From an uncultured Aquimarina sp. (lineage in GTDB: Bacteria > Bacteroidota > Bacteroidia > Flavobacteriales > Flavobacteriaceae), in the NCBI GenBank assembly GCA_947489685.1, contig CANLEM010000003.1:310001-374000 (forward strand): a DNA stretch of 64,000 nucleotides, written 5' to 3'. This document shows, in pieces, positions 47,099-58,713 of this stretch (position 1 is the stretch's first letter; every line of letters starts with the position of its first letter). The notes under the pieces are model-generated. The model was not told where the DNA came from. It did no database searches and saw nothing but the letters and a program-made list of their open reading frames with translations. The position numbers were made by a program, and so were the translations under genes.

Positions 47099-47128
47099 TT
47101 TCGGAAAGATATTTTTTTTATACATTCG
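47099..47128 (+). promoter_or_regulatory. Promoter of the histidine operon
   Basis: TTTCG (47099-47103) and TACATTCG (47121-47128) match the -33 and -7 elements with single mismatches and a 17-base spacer. The start site would fall about 14 bases before the leader-peptide ATG at 47148. A short inverted repeat (ATACAT ... ATGTAT, 47120-47136) overlaps the -7 element. Confidence 0.45.
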
Positions 47129-47147
47129 CGATGTATTTAAAAAAACA

Positions 47148-47204
47148 ATGAGAAACATCGCTATACATCATCATCATTCTTACATTTTCGCTCAGGCGTG
47201 GTAA
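47148..47204 (+). CDS. hisL: Histidine operon leader peptide
   Basis: The ORF reads MRNIAIHHHHSYIFAQAW and stops at TAA. Four consecutive His codons (47166-47177) make translation sensitive to charged tRNA-His. It is immediately followed by a terminator and overlaps an antiterminator arm, the classic layout of transcription attenuation. Too short for standard gene finders; the family is known from enterobacterial his leaders, but the peptide sequence here is unrelated apart from the His run. Confidence 0.9.
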   Translation: MRNIAIHHHHSYIFAQAW

Positions 47205-47268
47205 GTTTGGTATGTGTATAACACAAATATAAATCAAAACCCGTTTGAGAAGTTCAAACGGGTTTTTT
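47191..47268 (+). promoter_or_regulatory. his attenuator: antiterminator and terminator arms
   Basis: Terminator: 47236-47248 pairs with 47254-47266 in a perfect 13-bp stem with a five-base loop; T-run to 47268, then GTTTTT. Antiterminator: 47191-47202 (CTCAGGCGTGGT, the last codons of the leader peptide) pairs with 47239-47249 (ACCCGTTTGAG) by nine Watson-Crick pairs, two G-U pairs and one bulge. The two structures share 47239-47248 and cannot coexist. A ribosome stalled on the His codons leaves 47191 onward free and favours read-through; a ribosome at the stop codon hides it and favours termination. This is a hand-made pairing, not a folding calculation. Confidence 0.8.
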
Positions 47269-47315
47269 GTTTTTATAAACTTGTTTCGACTGATTAAACA
47301 CAACAACATTAAACA

Positions 47316-48173
47316 ATGTCAAAAATTAAAATTGCTATTCAAAAAAGTGGTCGACTTAATGAAGACTCTGTAAAAATCCTGAAGGATTGTGGTATTTCGA
47401 TTGATAACGGAAAAGATCAACTAAAAGCCGAAACACGTAATTTCCCAATGGAAGTCATGTTTTTGAGAAACGGAGATATTCCGCAATACCTGAGAGATGG
47501 TGTTGTTGATATCGCTATTATTGGAGAAAATGTACTTATCGAAAAAGGGCAGGATATATCAATTGTCGAACGACTTAATTTTTCGAAATGTAAAGTTTCG
47601 CTTGCTGTCCCAAAGGAATTTGATTATAATTCGATTAAGGACCTTAACGGAAAAAGAATAGCTACATCCTATCCAAATACTGTAAACGAATATTTAAATA
47701 AACAAGGTATAACGGCAGACCTACACCAGATTTCGGGCTCTGTAGAGATAGCCCCTAATATTGGATTAGCAGATGCCATTTGCGATATCGTATCTAGTGG
47801 AAGCACTTTATTCAAAAATAATTTGAAAGAGGTAGAGGTCATGCTTACTTCAGAAGCGGTACTTGCTGTATCTCCCAAAATATCTGAAGAAAACAAAGAG
47901 TTACTACAAAAATTACAATTTAGAATACAGGCTGTACTTAAGGCAAGAAATTCTAAGTATGTACTTCTTAATGCACCCAATAATAAAATAGAAAATATTG
48001 TCAAAATATTACCTGGTATGAGGAGTCCTACGGTACTACCATTGGCAGAAAAAGGATGGAGTTCTATTCATACTGTAGTAGAAAAGAATAAGTTTTGGGA
48101 TATTCTGGATGAGTTAAAATCTGAAGGAGCCGAGGGGATTTTGGTATGTCCAATTGAGAAAATGGTATTGTAA
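47316..48173 (+). CDS. hisG: ATP phosphoribosyltransferase (long form)
   Basis: HisG joins ATP and PRPP, the first and feedback-controlled step of histidine synthesis. The start IKIAIQKSGRLNEDSVKILK and ELVEVML-like catalytic loop (here LKEVEVMLTSEAVLAV) fit, and the C-terminal part (about 215-285, GMRSPTVLPLAEKGWSSIHT) is the ACT-like regulatory domain of the long, self-sufficient form. So no HisZ is needed, and allosteric inhibition by histidine is expected. The length of 285 residues is normal. It follows the attenuator and is the first gene of the operon. Confidence 0.97.
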   Translation: MSKIKIAIQKSGRLNEDSVKILKDCGISIDNGKDQLKAETRNFPMEVMFLRNGDIPQYLRDGVVDIAIIGENVLIEKGQDISIVERLNFSKCKVSLAVPKEFDYNSIKDLNGKRIATSYPNTVNEYLNKQGITADLHQISGSVEIAPNIGLADAICDIVSSGSTLFKNNLKEVEVMLTSEAVLAVSPKISEENKELLQKLQFRIQAVLKARNSKYVLLNAPNNKIENIVKILPGMRSPTVLPLAEKGWSSIHTVVEKNKFWDILDELKSEGAEGILVCPIEKMVL

Positions 48174-48198: not shown

Positions 48199-49488
48199 AT
48201 GAACAAAATATATAATCCAGATAAAAAAAACTGGTCAAAGGTATTAGAAAGACCGACACAAACCGTGGCCGATATAGAGCAAACTGTATTAGCGGTCTTT
48301 GCCGAAGTAAAGCAAGAAGGGGATGTTGCTATTAATAGATACACTCAAAAATTTGATAATGTTAATATAACTAATATTGAGGTTTCTAAGGCCGAAATTG
48401 AAGAGGCTAAAGAATTAGTTAGTGAAGAGTTAAAAAAAGCCATTTTGTTGGCCAAATCTAATATCGAAGCATTTCATGATGCTCAAAAGACTAATAAGGT
48501 TACCGTTGAAACGGCAAATGGAGTATCCTGTTGGCAAGAAAAAAGACCTATTCAAAAAGTTGGGTTGTACATACCAGGCGGAACAGCACCTTTATTTTCG
48601 ACTATATTAATGTTGGCTGTTCCGGCCAATCTAGCCGGTTGTAATGAGATTGTATTATGCTCTCCTCCGAATAGTCAAGGAAAAATAAACCCTGCAATCT
48701 TGTATACCGCAGATCTTTGTGGCGTAACCAAAATATGCAAAGTAGGGGGTATTCAGGCTATTGCCGGGATGACGTTTGCAACAGAAACAATTCCTCAGGT
48801 ATATAAAATTTTTGGCCCAGGAAATCAATTTGTGACAGTAGCAAAACAATTAGCCACCAAATTTGGTGTTGCCATTGATATGCCAGCAGGTCCTAGTGAG
48901 TTATTAGTTGTTGCGGATGATACTGCTAATGCTGCTTTTGTAGCTTCAGATTTATTAAGTCAGGCAGAACACGGTAAAGATAGTCAGGTGATTCTTGTTT
49001 CAACTTCTAAGGAGTTTATAGATAAAGTAGAAGAAGAGGTAGCAGAACAACTCGCTCTATTACCTAGAAAGGAAATAGCCTCTGCAGCTATTAAAAACTC
49101 CAAATTGATTTATGTAGAAAATGATAAAGAGGCTCTTGATTTAATCAATGAATATGGTCCTGAGCATTTCATAATCTGTGTAAATAATGAAGATTTTTAT
49201 ATCGATAATATAGCAAATGCTGGTTCGGTATTTATTGGTAATTATACTCCCGAAAGTGCAGGAGATTATGCCTCGGGAACTAATCACACACTCCCTACTA
49301 ATGGATATGCCAAACAATACAGTGGTGTTAATCTGGATAGCTTTATGAAATCGATGACGTTTCAGAAAATATCAAAAAAGGGAATTCAAACAATCGGCAC
49401 TGCGATAGAGCTTATGGCAGAAGCCGAGGGGTTACAAGCACATAAAAATGCGGTGACGTTAAGATTAGATAGCCTTTTGGAAAATTAA
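48199..49488 (+). CDS. hisD: Histidinol dehydrogenase
   Basis: HisD does the last two steps, oxidising histidinol to histidine with NAD and zinc. The motifs are GLYIPGGTAPLFSTILMLAV, IFGPGNQFVTVAKQLA, DMPAGPSELLVVAD and the C-terminal zinc region SAGDYASGTNHTLPT with GVNLDSFMKSMTFQ. The length of 429 residues is normal. It lies 25 bases after hisG. The next gene (DUF3667) begins 9 bases later. Confidence 0.97.
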   Translation: MNKIYNPDKKNWSKVLERPTQTVADIEQTVLAVFAEVKQEGDVAINRYTQKFDNVNITNIEVSKAEIEEAKELVSEELKKAILLAKSNIEAFHDAQKTNKVTVETANGVSCWQEKRPIQKVGLYIPGGTAPLFSTILMLAVPANLAGCNEIVLCSPPNSQGKINPAILYTADLCGVTKICKVGGIQAIAGMTFATETIPQVYKIFGPGNQFVTVAKQLATKFGVAIDMPAGPSELLVVADDTANAAFVASDLLSQAEHGKDSQVILVSTSKEFIDKVEEEVAEQLALLPRKEIASAAIKNSKLIYVENDKEALDLINEYGPEHFIICVNNEDFYIDNIANAGSVFIGNYTPESAGDYASGTNHTLPTNGYAKQYSGVNLDSFMKSMTFQKISKKGIQTIGTAIELMAEAEGLQAHKNAVTLRLDSLLEN

Positions 49489-49497
49489 AAGAGTAAA

Positions 49498-50349
49498 ATG
49501 GATTGTAGAAACTGTAAATATAAATTATCAGAGCAAATAGAATATTGCCAAAGTTGTGGAGCAAAAGTTATTCGAGAAAGAATTACATTGGGTCAATTAA
49601 AAAGAGATTTTGTTAATGATGTTTTAGGGTTGGATAACCTTTTCTTTAGAACATTAAAGACACTTACTATAGCTCCTTATAAGGTAATTTTAGAATATAC
49701 TTCGGGAACACGAAAGCGTTATATGAACCCTTTTGCTTTTCTGGCTATTGCAGCTGCTCTTGCTACATTTGTAATAAATTCATTTTCAGATGAGTATGTA
49801 GAAAGAATAAATGCTACACAAGATGAATCTCTATATGAGCAATTATTTTCGTTAACAAATCCAGGAAAGGATAAAAACTCGATATCGTACCAAGAGGAAT
49901 ATAGTAAGTACAGGGATTCGCAAGTAGAATTAAACATTAATATACAGACTATACTGTTGAAGTATTTTAATATTTTCGTTTTTTTATTTACTCCTGTGTA
50001 TGCTTTTATGGCCTTTCTGGTGTTTGGAAAGAAACGATTTAATTACGGAGAGCATTTGGTGGCCAATGCATATATCGTTGGATTTGCCTTATTACTCGGA
50101 ATGATATTTTTCTTAATGTCATTAGTGCTTTATCCGTCTATGTATATGTTTAGTTCAATTATTACTATTTCCTATTATTTAATCACCTATAAAAAAATAA
50201 ACAATCTATCGATTAAGGATACTATATTCAGATTCCTAAAATTCATTTTGGTATGTATTGGGTTTATAATGGTCATAGGTGTTATAGCTATTGTATTAGG
50301 GATTATAATAGGTATTATATTTGGAATTAATGGCTCTTTAACCGAGTAG
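49498..50349 (+). CDS. DUF3667 membrane protein inside the his operon
   Basis: A zinc-ribbon start (Cys3, Cys6, Cys17 and Cys20: CRNCKYKL and CQSCGAK) is followed by a conserved stretch ITLGQLKRDFVNDVLGLDN and about four membrane helices (about 77-95, 155-175, 188-222 and 245-275). Between the first two helices is a polar loop. This is the DUF3667 plan; the function is unknown. It has no relation to histidine synthesis that I can see, yet it lies 9 bases after hisD and 31 before hisC on the same strand. Confidence 0.82.
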   Translation: MDCRNCKYKLSEQIEYCQSCGAKVIRERITLGQLKRDFVNDVLGLDNLFFRTLKTLTIAPYKVILEYTSGTRKRYMNPFAFLAIAAALATFVINSFSDEYVERINATQDESLYEQLFSLTNPGKDKNSISYQEEYSKYRDSQVELNINIQTILLKYFNIFVFLFTPVYAFMAFLVFGKKRFNYGEHLVANAYIVGFALLLGMIFFLMSLVLYPSMYMFSSIITISYYLITYKKINNLSIKDTIFRFLKFILVCIGFIMVIGVIAIVLGIIIGIIFGINGSLTE

Positions 50350-50380
50350 TAAGATTTTATAAAAGATAGCAATAACAGTT

Positions 50381-51430
50381 ATGAAAAGCACACAATTCAA
50401 TATAAATCAATTGGTTCGCAAAAATATTTTGGGTTTACAACCATACTCATCGGCTAGAGACGAGTATGTGAGTGATGGATCAAAAATGATCTTTCTTGAT
50501 GCTAATGAAAACCCTTTTGAGAACGGCGTAAATCGTTACCCTGATCCTCAACAAAGAAACTTAAAAGCACTGCTCGCTCAACAAAAAGAAGTTTCAGAAA
50601 AAAACATTCTTTTAGGAAACGGAAGTGACGAAGTACTTGATCTTATTTTTAGAGCTTTTTGTGAACCAAAAGAAGATAATATTATTACGTTGCCACCTAC
50701 CTACGGAATGTATCAAGTGTTGGCAAGTATAAATAACATCGAGAATAAAAAAGTGTTATTGACACCGGGGTTTCAGCCCAATGTGTCTGCTATTTTTGAA
50801 GCGATAAATGAACTAACTAAAGTTATTTTTCTATGCTCTCCCAATAACCCTACGGGAAATTCTTTTTCTGAAGAAAGTATTACCGAAATTCTGGAAAATT
50901 TTAATGGATTAGTAGTGATAGACGAAGCATATATTGATTTTTCTAATAAAAAAAGTTGGTTAAATTCAATAGAAAGATATCCAAATTTAATTATCACTCA
51001 AACATTATCAAAAGCTTATGGTTTGGCGGGTATTAGACTTGGGGTGTGTTATAGCTCTACATCTGTAATCGAAGTTTTAAATAAAATAAAACCTCCATAT
51101 AATGTAAATGAATTAACGCAGCAAAGAGCATTTAATAGAATTTCTGACACGGGTAAGGTAACAATTGAAGTATCGGAGATATTAAAAGAAAGAAATGAAC
51201 TTATGTTGGTATTGCAAGAAATGAGTTTTGTTATCAAAATATATGAAAGTGATGCTAATTTTATTTTGGTAAAAGTTGATGATGCCAACAAAAGATATGC
51301 ACAATTATTAGACATGGGCATTGTAGTTCGTAACAGAAGTACTCAACCACTATGCGACAATACGCTTAGGTTTACTGTAGGTACAACTACAGAAAATGAA
51401 AAATTAATAAAAACTTTGAGACAATTATAA
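50381..51430 (+). CDS. hisC: Histidinol-phosphate aminotransferase
   Basis: A fold type I PLP enzyme that transaminates imidazole-acetol phosphate with glutamate. Motifs in order: [20 protein letters not shown] (the substrate loop at the N-terminus), [35 protein letters not shown], and the PLP-lysine in [16 protein letters not shown]. The C-terminal [21 protein letters not shown] contains the Arg that binds substrate carboxylate or phosphate. The length of 349 residues is normal. The next gene, hisB, is 46 bases downstream. Confidence 0.96.
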
Positions 51431-51476
51431 TAAATATTTTTCTTTTCAATTCGAAAAGAAAAAGAGATATAACCTT

Positions 51477-52613
51477 ATGAAAAAGAAAGTATTATTCATT
51501 GATCGTGATGGAACGATTATAAAAGAAACTGCAGATGAACAGATAGATGCATTTGAAAAAATGATTTTCTATCCTAAATCTTTTACATATTTAGGGAAAA
51601 TAGCTAAAGAATTAGAGTATGAATTGGTAATGATCACCAATCAGGACGGTCTGGGAACTGATGTTTTTCCAGAAGATACATTCTGGCCTGTACATAACTT
51701 TATCATGAAATCTTTTGAAAATGAAGGTGTGGTATTCGATAAGGTATTTTTGGATAGAACTTTTCCTCATGAAAATGCAAATACCAGAAAGCCTGGAACG
51801 GGGCTGTTAACCGAGTATTTCTCAGACGAATACGATTTAGAAAATTCTTTTGTGATTGGAGATCGGTTAACAGATATGGAGCTTGCTAAAAACTTAGGTG
51901 CAAAAGGTGTTTTTATAAATGATAATACGAACCTGGGAACGGGAGAAATTACCATAAAACGAGACGAACTAGATGTACACATAGCCCTTGAGAGTAATGA
52001 TTGGCAGAAGATATATGAGTTTTTGAAGTTAAAAGATCGTACTGCTCAAATATCTCGAAAGACCAATGAAACGGATATATCGATTACGCTCAATTTGGAT
52101 GGAACAGGTAAAAGTAATATCAGTACGGGATTAGAATTTTTTGACCACATGTTGGATCAAATTGCGCGTCATGGACACATGGATTTGGATATTCAAGTAA
52201 AAGGCGATCTAGAAGTAGATGAGCACCATACTATCGAGGATACTGCCATAGCATTAGGAGAGGTGTTTTCTAAAGCTTTAGGTAATAAATTAGGGATCGA
52301 ACGATATGGTTTTTGTTTGCCAATGGATGACTGCCTTGCGCAAGTAGCTATTGATTTTGGAGGACGTAACTGGCTAGTTTGGGAAGCAGATTTTAAACGC
52401 GAAATGATTGGTAAAATGCCTACCGAAATGTTTTTTCATTTCTTTAAATCATTTACCGATGGTGCCAAAGCGAATCTAAATATTAAAGCCGAAGGAACAA
52501 ATGAACATCATAAGATTGAAGCTATTTTTAAAGCTTTTGCTAAAGCAATTAAGGTAGCCGTAAAGAGAGATGCAGAGAAAATGATTTTACCAAGTACAAA
52601 AGGAATGTTATAA
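51477..52613 (+). CDS. hisB: Bifunctional histidinol phosphatase / imidazoleglycerol-phosphate dehydratase
   Basis: The N-terminal half (about 1-165) is a HAD-type phosphatase: [12 protein letters not shown] has the nucleophile and second Asp, and [19 protein letters not shown] the metal Asp. The C-terminal half (about 185-378) is IGPD with the two manganese-binding repeats: [49 protein letters not shown] and [13 protein letters not shown]. The fusion of steps 6 and 8 is the same as in enterobacteria. The length of 378 residues is slightly longer than E. coli HisB. One base separates it from hisH. Confidence 0.97.
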
Positions 52614-52614
52614 A

Positions 52615-53196
52615 ATGAAAATTGTTATCATAAATTATGGAGCAGGAAATATTCAATCCATAAAATTTGCAATCCAACGATTAGGGTATGAAGCTGTTTT
52701 AAGCGATAACCCCGAAGAAATAAAAGCTGCAGACAAAGTTATATTTCCAGGAGTAGGCGAAGCCAGTAGCGCAATGCGAAAACTAAAAGCTTCTGGATTG
52801 GATACTTTGGTTCCTAAACTTAAACAACCGGTGTTAGGAATATGTTTGGGGATGCAACTTATGTGCAATGCTACAGAAGAAGGTAATACAAAAGGCCTAG
52901 GCATTTTTAATGTAGATGTGCTTCGTTTCAATCATGGAGTAAAGGTTCCTCAAATAGGGTGGAATCAAATAGAATCTTTAGAGTCCTCCTTATTTGATAA
53001 TGTTAAAGAAAAAGACTATATCTACTTAGTGCATAGTTATTATGCTCCTGTAACTAATGACACTGTCTCAAAAACTAATTATGGAGTTGAGTATAGCACA
53101 GCGTTACATAAAGATAATTTTTATGGCACTCAATTTCATCCAGAAAAAAGTAGTGTAGTAGGAGAACAAATACTTAAAAACTTTTTAGAATTATGA
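52615..53196 (+). CDS. hisH: Imidazole glycerol phosphate synthase, glutaminase subunit
   Basis: HisH is the class I glutamine amidotransferase that feeds ammonia to HisF. The catalytic Cys is in [10 protein letters not shown], and the His-Glu pair in [11 protein letters not shown]. Two further motifs, [16 protein letters not shown] at the start and [10 protein letters not shown], are typical. The length of 193 residues is normal. Its last four bases overlap the hisA start (ATGA). Confidence 0.97.
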
Positions 53197-53921
53197 GGAT
53201 TATACCAGCAATAGATATTATTGAAGGAAAATGTGTTAGACTTTCTAAAGGGGATTATGACACGAAGAAAATTTATAATGAAAACCCACTAGAGGTAGCA
53301 CTAGAATTTGCGGATCATGGTATAGAATACTTGCATTTGGTTGATCTCGACGGGGCAAAATCTAAGCATATCGTCAATCATAAGGTACTGGAACAAATTG
53401 CTACAAAAACCGAGTTGAAAATTGATTTTGGTGGTGGATTAAAAACAGATGAAGATCTTAGGATAGCTTTTGAATGTGGAGCAAGTCAAATCACAGGAGG
53501 TAGTATTGCTGTTAAAAACCCCGAAACATTTAAATCCTGGTTGCAAAAATTCGGACCAGATAAAATTATTCTTGGCGCAGATGCAAATAATGAGAAAATA
53601 GCGGTTAGTGGGTGGCAAGAAGAAAGCGATCAAGAATTAATTCCTTTTATCAAAGCATATCAGCAAGAAGGAGTGTCTTATGTTATTTGTACCGATATCA
53701 GTAAAGATGGTATGTTACAAGGGCCTTCTTTTGAATTGTATAAAAGAATACTTGAAGCATCCAAAGGCCTAAAATTAATAGCTTCAGGCGGTATTTCAAC
53801 ATTTGATGAGTTGCCAATATTAGCACAATTAGGTTGCGAAGGAACTATAATTGGTAAAGCCATTTATGAAAATAGAATAAGTCTAAAACAACTAGAGAGG
53901 TATATTCTTTCAAAAGTATAA
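53193..53921 (+). CDS. hisA: ProFAR isomerase
   Basis: HisA is the TIM-barrel isomerase that opens the ribose ring of ProFAR to PRFAR. Catalytic Asp8 is in [15 protein letters not shown], and the second half Asp is in [15 protein letters not shown]; phosphate-binding loops are seen at [10 protein letters not shown] and [10 protein letters not shown]. The length of 242 residues is normal. A four-base overlap links it to hisH, and the DinB-fold gene begins 3 bases after it. Confidence 0.97.
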
Positions 53922-53924
53922 AAA

Positions 53925-54440
53925 ATGGATAAGATAATAACTCGAGAATTTGTAGAACAAATCACTTTTAGATGGGATGAGAGTACGAGAATGATATCAT
54001 TAAGTTTTGATCAATTATCTGATGAAGATGTATGGAAAAAACCTAATTCAAATTCTAATAGTATAGGTAACCTTATTCTTCATTTGTGCGGAAACATTAC
54101 GCAATATGCCATAGCTTCTTTAGGAAGAACTATAGATCAAAGGAATCGAGATGAAGAATTTTTGATCAATGGAGGATACTCAAAGAAGCAACTTTTTGAA
54201 AAATTAAAGTCTACAGTTAATAAGGCTAAAGAAGTGATTAATAATTGCTCTATAGAAGAATTACTTAGAAAAAGAGAGGTGCAAGGATTTGTTTTTTCCG
54301 GAATTGGAATTGCTATTCATGTAACCGAACATTATTCTTATCATACAGGCCAAATAGCCTTCTGGACAAAACAATTAAAGGATAAGAAGAGCTTAGGGTT
54401 TTATGATGGGATAGATCTAAATGTAAAAAATAAAAAATAG
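53925..54440 (+). CDS. DinB-fold protein inside the his operon
   Basis: A four-helix bundle of the DinB/YfiT type is indicated by the metal-ligand His53 in NLILHLCGN and His136 with His140 in [12 protein letters not shown]; this spacing is the DinB triad. The length of 171 residues fits DUF1572-type members. Known relatives include thiol transferases (bacillithiol, mycothiol) and many unassigned proteins. It lies 3 bases after hisA and 4 before hisF, and so interrupts the two enzymes that share PRFAR. No link to the pathway is known to me. Confidence 0.82.
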
Positions 54441-54444
54441 TATA

Positions 54445-55200
54445 ATGTTGACAAAGAGAATTATACCGTGTTTAGATATTAAAAATGGGCGTACAGTCAA
54501 AGGGGTTAATTTTGTAGACCTTCGAGATGCTGGTGACCCAGTAGAATTGGCTGATATTTATTCAAAAGCTGGAGCTGATGAGCTGGTGTTTCTTGATATA
54601 TCTGCAACTGAAGAAAGACGAAAAACACTGGCAAACTTGGTGTTACGAGTAGCCGAAAAGGTAAATATCCCGTTTACCGTGGGTGGGGGGATATCATCTG
54701 TTGAAGATGTAGATATATTGTTGCAAAACGGAGCTGATAAAGTTTCTGTTAATTCTTCTGCGGTTAAGAATCCAGGATTAATTAATGAGTTGGCTGCAAA
54801 ATTTGGGAGCCAATGTATTACCGTAGCTATTGATGCTAAACAAATAGATGGTTCATGGATCGTACATTTGGTAGGAGGTAAAGTACCTACCGAACTTGAT
54901 TTGTTTGATTGGGCCAAAGAAGTTGAGCAAAGAGGAGCAGGAGAGATACTTTTTACATCTATGGATAATGATGGAACAAAAGATGGTTTTGCCAATAAGG
55001 CCTTGGCTAAACTATCCGAGGGATTAAATATTCCGATAATTGCATCGGGTGGTGCTGGTAACATTTCACACTTTGTAGACACTTTTAATAAAGGAAAAGC
55101 AGATGCTGCTCTTGCAGCAAGTGTTTTTCACTTTAAAGAAATAGAAATAAAAGATTTAAAAAAAGAATTACGAGATCATAACATTCCCGTACGATTATAG
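54445..55200 (+). CDS. hisF: Imidazole glycerol phosphate synthase, cyclase subunit
   Basis: HisF is the TIM barrel that closes the imidazole ring, releasing IGP and AICAR, with ammonia from HisH. Catalytic Asp11 is in [18 protein letters not shown] and the second Asp in [14 protein letters not shown]. The phosphate loops are [12 protein letters not shown] and [10 protein letters not shown]. The length of 251 residues is normal. Six bases separate it from hisIE. Confidence 0.97.
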
Positions 55201-55206
55201 ATACTT

Positions 55207-55803
55207 ATGAAAATAGATTTTAATAAAAATAATGACGGACTGGTTCCTGCAATTATACAAGATGCATCTACCAAAAATGTGTTAATGTTGGGGTACATGA
55301 ACGATGAAGCATATAACAAAACCATCGAAACAAAAAAGGTAACTTTTTTCAGTCGTTCAAAAAAACGACTTTGGACAAAGGGTGAAGAAAGTGGTAATTT
55401 TTTAAACCTTATTGCTATCAAAAATGATTGTGATCAGGATACACTATTAATTACGGTTGATCCCGTTGGACCAACTTGTCATAAAGGATCTGATACCTGT
55501 TGGGGAGAAGATAATGAGCAAGAGTTTGGATTTTTATCAGATTTGGAAGCAATTATTCAAAATCGAAAAGAAAATCAGGAAGATTCTAAATCGTATGTGG
55601 CATCATTGTTTAGAAAAGGAATTAATACGATGGCTCAAAAAGTTGGAGAAGAAGCAGTAGAGGTGGTAATTGAAGCCAAAGATGATAATGAAGAATTATT
55701 TTTAAACGAAAGTGCCGATTTGTTGTTTCATTATATGATTTTGTTACAGGCAAAAGGATATAAATTAAATGATATTGTAAATGTATTAAAGTCAAGAAGT
55801 TGA
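55207..55803 (+). CDS. hisIE: Bifunctional phosphoribosyl-AMP cyclohydrolase / phosphoribosyl-ATP pyrophosphatase
   Basis: The N-terminal part (about 1-105) is PRA-CH: VTFFSRSKKRLWTKGEESGN, the zinc Cys region DPVGPTCHKGSDTCW. The C-terminal part (about 110-198) is PRA-PH, an all-helical MazG-like domain with KKVG-type motif (here AQKVGEEAVEVVIEAKDDN). The two do steps 2 and 3. The length of 198 residues is normal. It is the last gene of the operon; no clear terminator hairpin follows. Confidence 0.97.
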   Translation: MKIDFNKNNDGLVPAIIQDASTKNVLMLGYMNDEAYNKTIETKKVTFFSRSKKRLWTKGEESGNFLNLIAIKNDCDQDTLLITVDPVGPTCHKGSDTCWGEDNEQEFGFLSDLEAIIQNRKENQEDSKSYVASLFRKGINTMAQKVGEEAVEVVIEAKDDNEELFLNESADLLFHYMILLQAKGYKLNDIVNVLKSRS

Positions 55804-55890: not shown

Positions 55891-55935
55891 AACTAACCAA
55901 TTTTGAAGCATAAAGACGGTAAATCACAAGCTGTT

Positions 55936-58713
55936 ATGACGAAACATCTTGTAAAAATCCTGATAGGAATATTTTGTATCTCAAAATTTTCTTATTCACA
56001 ATGTACTAACCCGGGACTTATTACTATTAGCGAGTGTGACATGGAAAATGTCGACTTTGATATGAATGGTACTGCAGATGGAATCATTAATATCTATGAC
56101 GAGACGGGTACCACTCCAGCCGACGGAACTTGGACTATAGCTCCAAGATTTGCCGCTGCATTTGATACCGCTACAGGTAATCTTTCAACTTGGGACTTGC
56201 AATTTTCTACTACTGCAATCACGCCTAACGACTATTTTTTTGAATTGAGGAGTGTAGCGTGTGGAGATGTACCTATTAGAACAGCTAGATTGTTTTTAGG
56301 ACCATATTCTGGTGTAGCTCTGGCTCCATTTGGAACACTTAATGTTAATGTAGAAGCATGTGATTTAGAAACTTTTGATTTGTTTAATGCATTAACCTCG
56401 GATGTAGCTAATCCGCCGCCTCACTTAAATGGTGAATGGGTGTATAATGGCACCAGCTCTAATTTTTTAAGCCTTTCGGGATCGGTTTTTTCAGCTAGGA
56501 TCCCATATCAACCCGGATTACCATTGGTTGATCAGGAAGTGTTTGAGTTTACATACAGGGTACCTGGGTTAACTCCATGTGATCCATTTCAGGAAACAAC
56601 AGTCAGGATATCAATGATACGACAGGTAAATGCAGGATTTTCTGATTCGACCGATATTTGTGAAGATGAGATTCTGGCAGGAGCATATGATGCAGATATT
56701 AATCTAAGGGATGATCAGTATCTCTCTGGAGAGGATATCGAAGGGATATGGGTAGTAGGAGCAGATACTACCGGCCAGATATCTGACGAACAAGATCCAA
56801 TAATTAATATAAAAGAGGTATATGATCAAATTGTTGATGGTGGTAATAATTTGAGATTTGGATGTGAAACTTTTAGCTATCAATATTCGGTTAGTCAAAG
56901 ATCTGGTGTATGTGATGATAGAAGTACTAGTGTGTCCTTTACTATTTATGAGCAATTAAGATCATTTAATCAACCCGATGCGCCGCCACAAGTGTGTAGA
57001 AATACTTCTGGTTCTATTAATCTTTTTGATTTATTAGAGTTCACAAATGAAGGCGGGTTTGATTTTGTCTATGATAATAGTTTTTATGTAAACTGGCGTT
57101 TAGTTTCGGGACCTTCTTCTTTGGGTTTAGTAGAACAGCCTAATACGCTTGATACTTTTGATACGAGTATTGATTATTACTTGGGTACAGTTAATTTGTC
57201 TTTAGCACCTGCAGGAGTATATACTTTTGAATATGGAGTGACACCAGATATCAATTGCCCGAGCCCTTCACAAATATGTGATCCTTTTGTTACTAGTCCT
57301 ACAGATCCCACATTCTCTAATAACCCTTGTGATGTATTAACGGCTCAGGTAACTATACAAATCTTAGCATTTGATTATGCCGGAGAGGATACAGATGATA
57401 TTATCTTGTGTGCATCTCTTGGTCAAGTGGATTTAAGAAGTCTTCTAGAAACTAATGGTACAGATACAGTTGTAGAAACTGGAATTTGGACGGATTCATC
57501 AAATAATGTAATTGATAATACTTTTGTTTTTCCGACAATTACGACATCGCAATTATTTAATTTTATTTATACAACGACTAGTAGTGATGGTTGTGTAGAG
57601 CGTTCGCAGTTAAGCTTTGTAATAGATCCGGTCCCAGACGCGGGTGAAGATAATGATGTTGCAATATGTTCGGATAACCTGGTAATTACACTTTTTGACC
57701 AATTGGGAGGGAACCCTAGTACCGAAGGCACCTGGACAGGGCCTTTTGGATTTGTATCTACAGATCATTTGGGCGTTTTTGATATTAATGACGAAACTTT
57801 ACCAATTCTCGGAGGTGGTAACTATACATATACAGTGCCTGCTAATGATGGATGTACAACACCAGATACGGCTATTATAAATATTACTATAGTAGAACCA
57901 GTTACCATTGGCACAGATAGGGCAGATACATTTTGTAAAATAGATGGTCGTGTTAATTTGTTTTCTCTTTTGGATAGAGATACCCCCAGAACGGGAGTTT
58001 TTGAAGATACCGATAATACGGGTGCGCTTTCTGTCGATGGAGTTTTAGAGTTCGAAACGTTGACGAATGAAATTTATAATTTCACTTATGTAATAACCAA
58101 TGCAATACCTTGTGATGAATCCACACTTAATGTAGCAGTACAAATTGTTGATTTACCTATTCCCAATGTGCCGAGTCAGGAGTTTTGTATTCTTGATGCG
58201 GTTAGATTAGATGATATCCAAGTAGATGTATTAAATTATAATTGGTACGCTACTTTAGAAAGTGAAACTCCAATATTGGATAATCCTTTGCTTTTGGATA
58301 ATCAAGTGTTTTATATCGCAAATGTAGATGTGGATAATTGTGAATCAGAAAGACTTGAAGTTAATATCAATATTCTGAATACAGGAGAACGCTCTTCGAC
58401 CGGTGAATTATGTACTCTGGACTTTCAAGATGGAGTATCTCCTAATGGAGATAATCAAAACGACACTTTTGATTTATTTATAGAAGGTGTTTATAATCTA
58501 CCCGAAGCATTTCCAGATTTCGATCTTCAAATTTTTAATAGATACGGAAGCTTGGTATATGAAGGAAATAATAATACCGAAGAGTTTAGAGGAGAAAGTA
58601 ATACCTCGGTACGATTAGGAGATGATCTTCCTTCAGGAACCTATTTCTACATATTTACTCCCAATTTTGAAAATAATTTACCAATACAAGGAAGTTTTTA
58701 CTTAAGCAGATAA
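55936..58713 (+). CDS. Secreted repeat protein with CHU_C (T9SS type B) sorting domain
   Basis: With the ATG at 55936 the protein starts with a clean signal peptide (MTKHLVKILIGIFCISKFSYS, cleaved near residue 21). The long middle is made of Cys-paired Ig-like/PKD-like or SprB-like units (GIWTDSSNNVIDN, AGEDNDVAICSDN, GTWTGPFGF), each with a short ATTAC-like acidic start. The last 95 residues are the gliding-motility CHU_C domain (DFQDGVSPNGDNQNDTFDLF, YGSLVYEGNNN, SGTYFYIF). Such proteins are exported by T9SS and need a PorP/SprF partner, which is the next gene. They are usually adhesins or surface filaments. Confidence 0.88.
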   Translation: MTKHLVKILIGIFCISKFSYSQCTNPGLITISECDMENVDFDMNGTADGIINIYDETGTTPADGTWTIAPRFAAAFDTATGNLSTWDLQFSTTAITPNDYFFELRSVACGDVPIRTARLFLGPYSGVALAPFGTLNVNVEACDLETFDLFNALTSDVANPPPHLNGEWVYNGTSSNFLSLSGSVFSARIPYQPGLPLVDQEVFEFTYRVPGLTPCDPFQETTVRISMIRQVNAGFSDSTDICEDEILAGAYDADINLRDDQYLSGEDIEGIWVVGADTTGQISDEQDPIINIKEVYDQIVDGGNNLRFGCETFSYQYSVSQRSGVCDDRSTSVSFTIYEQLRSFNQPDAPPQVCRNTSGSINLFDLLEFTNEGGFDFVYDNSFYVNWRLVSGPSSLGLVEQPNTLDTFDTSIDYYLGTVNLSLAPAGVYTFEYGVTPDINCPSPSQICDPFVTSPTDPTFSNNPCDVLTAQVTIQILAFDYAGEDTDDIILCASLGQVDLRSLLETNGTDTVVETGIWTDSSNNVIDNTFVFPTITTSQLFNFIYTTTSSDGCVERSQLSFVIDPVPDAGEDNDVAICSDNLVITLFDQLGGNPSTEGTWTGPFGFVSTDHLGVFDINDETLPILGGGNYTYTVPANDGCTTPDTAIINITIVEPVTIGTDRADTFCKIDGRVNLFSLLDRDTPRTGVFEDTDNTGALSVDGVLEFETLTNEIYNFTYVITNAIPCDESTLNVAVQIVDLPIPNVPSQEFCILDAVRLDDIQVDVLNYNWYATLESETPILDNPLLLDNQVFYIANVDVDNCESERLEVNINILNTGERSSTGELCTLDFQDGVSPNGDNQNDTFDLFIEGVYNLPEAFPDFDLQIFNRYGSLVYEGNNNTEEFRGESNTSVRLGDDLPSGTYFYIFTPNFENNLPIQGSFYLSR

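Follow-up and report, generated by a model that had tools for sequence, protein, structure and literature searches.

The leader ahead of hisG (47133-47275) is very probably a ribosome-mediated transcription attenuator, through which the histidine (his) operon would be read only when charged histidine tRNA is scarce. In the window (the whole stretch of DNA that was analysed, 64,000 nucleotides), a short open reading frame (ORF) rich in codons for the product of the pathway is followed by a terminator that precedes the first gene. A mutually exclusive antiterminator, set by the position of the ribosome, is predicted in the window and in 130 of 162 loci, and its letters have changed in a coordinated manner between lineages. 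A sequence-only reading of the same DNA had proposed a complete histidine attenuator at this place, and this proposal is now supported by conservation of the ORF, by compensatory changes in the terminator and by lineage-specific letters in the antiterminator; the switching itself is predicted. The positions that it gave for the ORF, the terminator and the antiterminator are correct to the base according to sequence and folds, NCBIfam confirms hisG and the downstream his genes, and the label 'flavobacterium' is borne out at the family level (Flavobacteriaceae). The features of the leader and the operon are collected in Table 1.

Table 1. Features of the his leader and operon (positions are those of the window).
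Feature	Position	Strand	Basis
Predicted -7 promoter box TACATTCG (consensus TAnnTTTG, one mismatch)	47121..47128	+	sequence; same-genus boxes
Leader peptide ORF MRNIAIHHHHSYIFAQAW (ATG at 47148, stop TAA at 47202-47204)	47148..47204	+	sequence
Helix 1: 47162-47183 with 47201-47220, plus inner stem 47189-47191 / 47196-47198	47162..47220	+	folds
Four consecutive His codons (CAT x4), presumed sensing codons	47166..47177	+	sequence
Antiterminator 5′ strand, in the last codons (AQAW) plus first stop base	47191..47202	+	fold, duplexes, codon use
Intrinsic terminator hairpin, 13 bp, then T-rich tract to ~47275	47236..47266	+	folds; compensatory changes
Antiterminator 3′ strand, overlapping the terminator 5′ arm	47239..47249	+	fold, duplexes
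hisG, first gene of the presumably regulated operon	47316..48173	+	NCBIfam TIGR00070 above cut-off
Remaining his operon: hisD, hisC, hisB, hisH, hisA, hisF, hisIE, with two other genes inside	48199..55803	+	NCBIfam

The two other genes inside the operon are a DUF3667 gene between hisD and hisC (49498-50349) and a DinB/DUF1572 gene between hisA and hisF (53925-54440). At 55903-58713, directly past the operon, lies the gene of a large protein that carries a CHU_C type IX secretion signal domain.

In the mechanism that we propose, transcription would begin near 47133, and a ribosome would initiate at an AUG in an A-rich context, with no Shine-Dalgarno sequence. When histidine is plentiful, the ribosome would reach the stop codon and cover 47191-47202, upon which the terminator (47236-47266) would form. 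When histidine is scarce, a ribosome stalled on the four His codons would open helix 1 and free 47191-47202, which would pair with 47239-47249 ahead of synthesis of the terminator 3′ arm, letting the polymerase enter hisG. On leaders that carry no ribosome, modelled folds predict helix 1 to sequester the antiterminator strand, and termination would prevail.

To follow the leader across related bacteria, regions upstream of hisG were collected from genomes of the genus (hisG found in 50 of 52), the family (166 of 199) and the class (74 of 168). By lineage, the 197 regions analysed split into genus (49), rest of the family (79), order (1) and rest of the class (68). They stem from 49 of the 50 same-genus genomes with hisG (G039, with a truncated hisG, was left out), from 78 of the 164 other hisG genomes of the family (the 28 closest and 50 picked down the list) and, in the class draw, from every one of the 69 genomes outside the family and from a single family member (G342). 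Leaders were detected as ATG-started ORFs 8-35 codons long in which some stretch of seven residues holds three or more His. Such an ORF lies upstream of hisG in 177 of the 197 regions (genus 48 of 49, family 72 of 79, order one of one, class 56 of 68), and it is combined with a terminator in 159 (genus 46, family 71, order 1, class 41). Shuffled regions gave the ORF in 16 of 1970 cases and the pair in none of 1970, and reverse strands gave 4 of 197 and 1 of 197, respectively. By this detector, 20 of the 197 hisG loci have no such ORF and 38 have no ORF-terminator pair; of the 69 loci from beyond the family, only 42 have the pair. The sequence-only reading had named sister species as the place where a short His-rich ORF ought to recur, and with 48 of 49 same-genus loci it does. 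When GTG and TTG starts were also allowed, 35 of the 197 regions had no leader-terminator pair; these were excluded from the duplex, helix, fold and promoter-box counts given below, for which 162 loci remain.

The leader can also be found without reference to hisG. A pattern composed of His codons, the antiterminator strand and the terminator 5′ arm matched at least 120 stretches in GTDB genomes, and among the matches listed, 116 of 120 have hisG less than 200 nt downstream. For three of the remaining four, the fetched stretch ends 38-155 nt downstream of the match. Within the 80 stretches (of at least 120) that were inspected, a leader was detected in 73 of the 76 with hisG. The his leader of a record named F. 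johnsoniae CI04 reads MISNQLHHHHFHYCSQAMC. The fourth match with no hisG less than 200 nt downstream comes from an uncultured Bacteroidales record (L291), where hisG is absent from the following 1.9 kb. A record labelled uncultured Rhodobacteraceae (L246) contains a Flavobacteriaceae-type his leader together with hisG; this assembly is probably mislabelled or contaminated.

These counts bear on the idea that the terminator and the His-rich ORF are fortuitous, or that the hairpin serves an upstream or opposite-strand gene. The hairpin could indeed fold from the − strand too. The next two genes upstream of the leader, however, lie on the − strand and are oriented away from it, and the nearest + strand gene upstream ends as far back as 45352 (ORFs of at least 90 aa considered). 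With no + strand gene of that size just upstream, the hairpin is not a read-out terminator but part of the his transcript. Gene directions and conservation (the pair in 159 of 197 loci, compared to 0 of 1970 shuffles) therefore refute both a chance ORF and a hairpin that serves a neighbour, and we put the probability of this reading close to nil.

The terminator stem (47236-47248 / 47254-47266) folds with −16.7 kcal/mol, and hairpin and T tract end about 50 nt upstream of hisG. The leader as a whole (fold of 47130-47275) reaches z = −5.9 against 200 dinucleotide shuffles. Compensatory changes in the stems, by which the sequence-only reading had wanted to be judged, are present in the terminator in both sets of sequences for which pairs were counted against shuffles. 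In the first set (59 loci, script-picked as non-redundant), both sides have changed in 5 of 12 pairs, and none of 500 shuffles reaches any of the five measures. In the second set, which leans to one arm type (28 loci script-picked by arm sequence, from which L093, L120 and L122 were removed by hand, leaving 25), both sides have changed in 6 of 10 pairs; four of the five measures were never reached by shuffles, and the number of pair types was reached by 26 of 500. Histidine could instead act through translation of hisG or through Rho, with translation of the leader keeping the RNA free of Rho or exposing the hisG start. This would fit with the tuning of initiation by mRNA structure in F. johnsoniae (PMC6847099). 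We consider it very unlikely in view of the strong 13-bp hairpin with its T tract so close to hisG, and of the compensatory changes that relatives have accumulated in it.

The antiterminator would be formed by 47191-47198 with 47242-47249, 47200-47201 with 47240-47241 and 47202 with 47239, leaving 47199 bulged (−15.1 kcal/mol). That terminator and antiterminator share the segment 47239-47248, as had been claimed from the letters, is confirmed by the fold. The last codons of Flavobacteriaceae leaders are mostly CTCARGCG, paired with CGTTTGAG, while those of many other Bacteroidia are GGTAAGYC or similar, paired with GGCTTACC. The terminator 3′ arm co-varies too: one arm base often has two partners, both of which track the base, in a comparison where duplexes were optimised per locus, which favours pairing. 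In 45 of 46 genus loci, 66 of 72 family loci and 26 of 44 other loci, no more than 5 of 100 shuffled regions yield a duplex between leader and arm that is as good. When arms were swapped between the two sets of lineages, the 118 Flavobacteriaceae loci pair with their own arm at a mean of −13.0 kcal/mol and with the arms of the other set at −8.2 kcal/mol; for the 44 loci outside the family, these values are −11.5 and −8.2 kcal/mol. In 65 of the 118 Flavobacteriaceae loci and 29 of the 44 others, the own arm pairs better than 95% of the foreign arms.

Within each set, the antiterminator is 89.5% and 81.4% paired, and slid registers reach at most 49% and 51%. Covariation within the sets is not clearly above shuffles: the percentage paired is reached by 31 of 500 and 54 of 500 shuffles, and the covariation score by 77 of 500 and 51 of 500. 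The antiterminator is too conserved within each set; the evidence for it comes from the comparison between sets. A strict pattern for the second antiterminator type gave one match over 118 phylum genomes; it was probably too strict, and it lends no support. The covariation that the sequence-only reading had anticipated is hence found in part, as compensatory changes in the terminator and as antiterminator letters that differ between distant lineages, whereas covariation of the antiterminator within a set does not stand out clearly from shuffles.

The last codons of the leader tell RNA and peptide apart. In 101 of 122 Flavobacteriaceae leaders, the His run is followed by Gln-Ala, which could speak for a nascent-chain arrest peptide: a conserved C-terminus (QAW, QAR or QAS) would stall the ribosome upon some ligand, and the His run would be secondary. 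The codons, however, suit base pairing rather than the peptide. The Ala codon, which lies within the antiterminator strand, is GCG in 100 of the 101 Gln-Ala leaders, a codon that makes up only 14 of the 164 Ala codons in the his genes of the window. The Gln codon is CAG or CAA, either of which can pair. The residue preceding Gln is of 11 kinds, yet the third base of its codon is T in 87 of 101 leaders, and the residue following Ala is variable. Judging from this codon choice, selection at the last codons of the leader is on the RNA rather than on the peptide, and it is the C-terminal RNA that is conserved, given GCG in 100 of 101. Outside the family, moreover, most of the loci that were read have another C-terminus (e.g. 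GKS or SENPE) and keep the pairing with the terminator arm. The His run is kept throughout, although leaders were picked by their His run. Codon choice thus disfavours an arrest peptide, which we regard as extremely unlikely.

For attenuation by a ribosome stalled on the His codons, the leader would have to fold differently depending on where that ribosome stands. To assess helix 1, each locus was folded with its own post-stop segment and with shuffled versions of it. Five or more His-codon bases pair with the native segment in 145 of 162 loci, compared to 38-46% once it is shuffled. RNAalifold on the family alignment did not recover helix 1, probably as the varying length of the His run shifts the columns. 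The positions of the ribosome were modelled on transcripts to 47250, with a ribosome that covers up to 12 nt past the first base of the A-site codon, as its footprint does. In the window transcript, a ribosome at the first or last of the four His codons leaves the antiterminator (−18.5 kcal/mol), a ribosome at the stop codon leaves a weak local hairpin only (−1.2 kcal/mol), and the ribosome-free transcript folds into helix 1 (−19.9 kcal/mol). Folding under constraints, proposed by the sequence-only reading as a check of its two structures, is in favour of the switch on transcripts that end at the terminator 5′ arm. In 130 of the 162 loci, the antiterminator forms upon a stall at the first His and is lost with a ribosome at the stop codon, compared to 435 of 3240 shuffled controls; 32 of the 162 fail in this test. 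A ribosome-free state without the antiterminator holds in 120 of the 162 loci, and all three states in 100.

Whichever of the four ribosome settings is chosen, the full-length window transcript folds more stably as terminator than as antiterminator (−26.8 versus −18.5 with a ribosome at the first His). With the terminator thermodynamically favoured, switching would have to be kinetic, with the antiterminator forming first. This is also the accepted picture of classic attenuators, in which the antiterminator wins by forming first. Counted from the first base of the last His codon, the antiterminator starts after a median of 14 nt in the genus, 11 nt in the rest of the family and 15.5 nt outside the family. 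The stall geometry that had been read from the window, with the ribosome footprint ending close to the antiterminator strand, fits in the genus; in the rest of the family, with 11 nt, a ribosome standing at the final His codon would reach the first bases of the antiterminator.

How the leader is started in bacteria that do not use a Shine-Dalgarno sequence can be approached through its promoter. The sigma-A box TAnnTTTG spans −12 to −5 in F. johnsoniae and F. psychrophilum (PMC6847099; PMC9723704), by which transcription in the window is predicted to start at 47133, giving a 5′ untranslated region (UTR) of 15 nt. In 37 of 46 same-genus leaders, the box lies 14-23 nt upstream of the ATG (mostly 16-21), from which predicted 5′ UTRs of about 12-17 nt would follow. 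The A-rich stretch ahead of the ATG, pointed out in the sequence-only reading, is real: A dominates from −3 to −8, being found at each of these positions in 69-82% of the 46 same-genus leaders. Initiation in F. johnsoniae benefits from A at −3 and −6 (PMC6847099).

Other genera of the family differ in where the box lies. It ends 7-8 nt before the ATG in 27 of their 71 leaders (about 2 in shuffles), which would leave a predicted 5′ UTR of 3-4 nt and make these leader mRNAs nearly leaderless. Seven of the 71 have a box at both 0-9 nt and 14-23 nt, making their start ambiguous. Among the 73 leaders from the 80 inspected GTDB stretches (of at least 120), 11 have a box 5-9 nt before the ATG, some with a second box. 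Records with a near box include Zobellia amurskyensis, a Pseudozobellia, an Allomuricauda, an Arenibacter, a Maribacter and a Cellulophaga. Nearly leaderless leader mRNAs in part of the family are a prediction that is new here. If true, a ribosome could load once the 5′ end leaves the polymerase, and no landing site would be needed.

Taken together, these data suggest a wider picture, to which we give even chances as a whole: his attenuation would be old and Bacteroidia-wide rather than a proteobacterial speciality; the antiterminator and both terminator arms would have been rewritten at least once between lineages; and in Zobellia, Maribacter, Allomuricauda and Arenibacter, the leader would be started on a nearly leaderless mRNA (5′ UTR of 3-4 nt). 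A his attenuator before most of the sampled Bacteroidia hisG genes would change the present map of histidine control. An attenuator of this kind requires the first ribosome to keep up with the polymerase, and it thereby also makes the coupling of transcription and translation without a Shine-Dalgarno sequence a testable question. Furthermore, a covariance model built from his-leader alignments could fill a gap in Rfam.

Histidine is apparently not the only amino acid for which this logic is used. Upstream of trpE, a leader with WWW is present in 12 of 12 same-genus genomes, with a terminator in 11, and the same-genus trp leaders score above the cut-off of Rfam Bacteroid-trp in three of three loci scanned. 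Upstream of ilvD, an Ile/Leu/Val-rich leader followed by a terminator is present in 9 of 12 same-genus genomes, including that of the window; two ilvD loci were scanned and gave no Rfam match. The cell seems, from these leaders, to apply leader-peptide attenuation to several amino acids.

Attenuation in this phylum has been suggested before. Bacteroid-trp was given in 2010 as a likely cis-regulatory motif of Bacteroidetes (PMC2864571), and long 5′ UTRs of Bacteroides thetaiotaomicron contain short ORFs reminiscent of leader peptides (PMC7366714). For F. psychrophilum, a 2021 study described 64 structured 5′ regions and strong clues for leader-peptide attenuation before amino-acid operons, in a main text without the word histidine (PMC9723704). 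The contrast drawn in the sequence-only reading, between attenuation as a classic of Enterobacteria and this phylum, therefore overstates the rarity, as Bacteroid-trp (RF01692) and the F. psychrophilum proposal precede it. The phyla named in surveys of histidine control are Proteobacteria and Firmicutes (PMC9413887). In the open-access literature, we found no earlier his attenuator for this phylum. A comparative attenuation study by Vitreschak and colleagues in 2004 reportedly touched Bacteroidetes/Chlorobi, as is said to be possible for one by Lopatovskaya and colleagues in 2010, and a his attenuator in Bacteroidetes may already have been predicted in print.

Among the closest known systems is the leader of the enterobacterial his operon (RF00514, His_leader), with which the window shares a run of His codons in a short leader ORF, an intrinsic terminator before the his genes and a His-codon strand that is paired downstream, helix 1 lying at the same place as the helix of the model. 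The alignment of the window covers the whole model (126 positions) on the correct strand and includes both helices. Its score of 30.0 bits (E 0.0024-0.0034) lies below the cut-off of 49 bits, and formal membership is rejected. Unrelated families score similarly in the same scan (drum with 29.2 bits on the other strand, mir-4742 with 28.5), so the score is no evidence of common descent, and the likeness is one of design. The his loci of five relatives gave no RF00514 match at E 0.1. The enterobacterial his leader carries seven His codons. The window differs from that system in its four His codons, in an antiterminator strand located in the last codons of the peptide and in a start without Shine-Dalgarno.

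Within the same phylum, Bacteroid-trp (RF01692) is likewise a leader-peptide attenuator, and it differs in having Trp codons, in preceding trpE and in its sequence; it is absent from the 26 Rfam matches of the window his leader up to E 10. A T-box or other Rfam riboswitch at gathering score is found nowhere in the 64,000 bases of the window. The his leaders of the Bacillus cereus group, Eubacteriales and Erysipelotrichales have Shine-Dalgarno starts. These attenuators, from another phylum, resemble that of the window in design, with 3-5 His codons in a row and with a terminator and antiterminator before the his operon (PMC9413887). The amino-acid operons of F. psychrophilum (PMC9723704) are from the same family, and the same type of mechanism has been proposed for them. 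The window leader is thus the histidine member, below the cut-off of the Rfam His_leader, of a kind of attenuator that is already known from Bacteroid-trp and from the proposal for F. psychrophilum.
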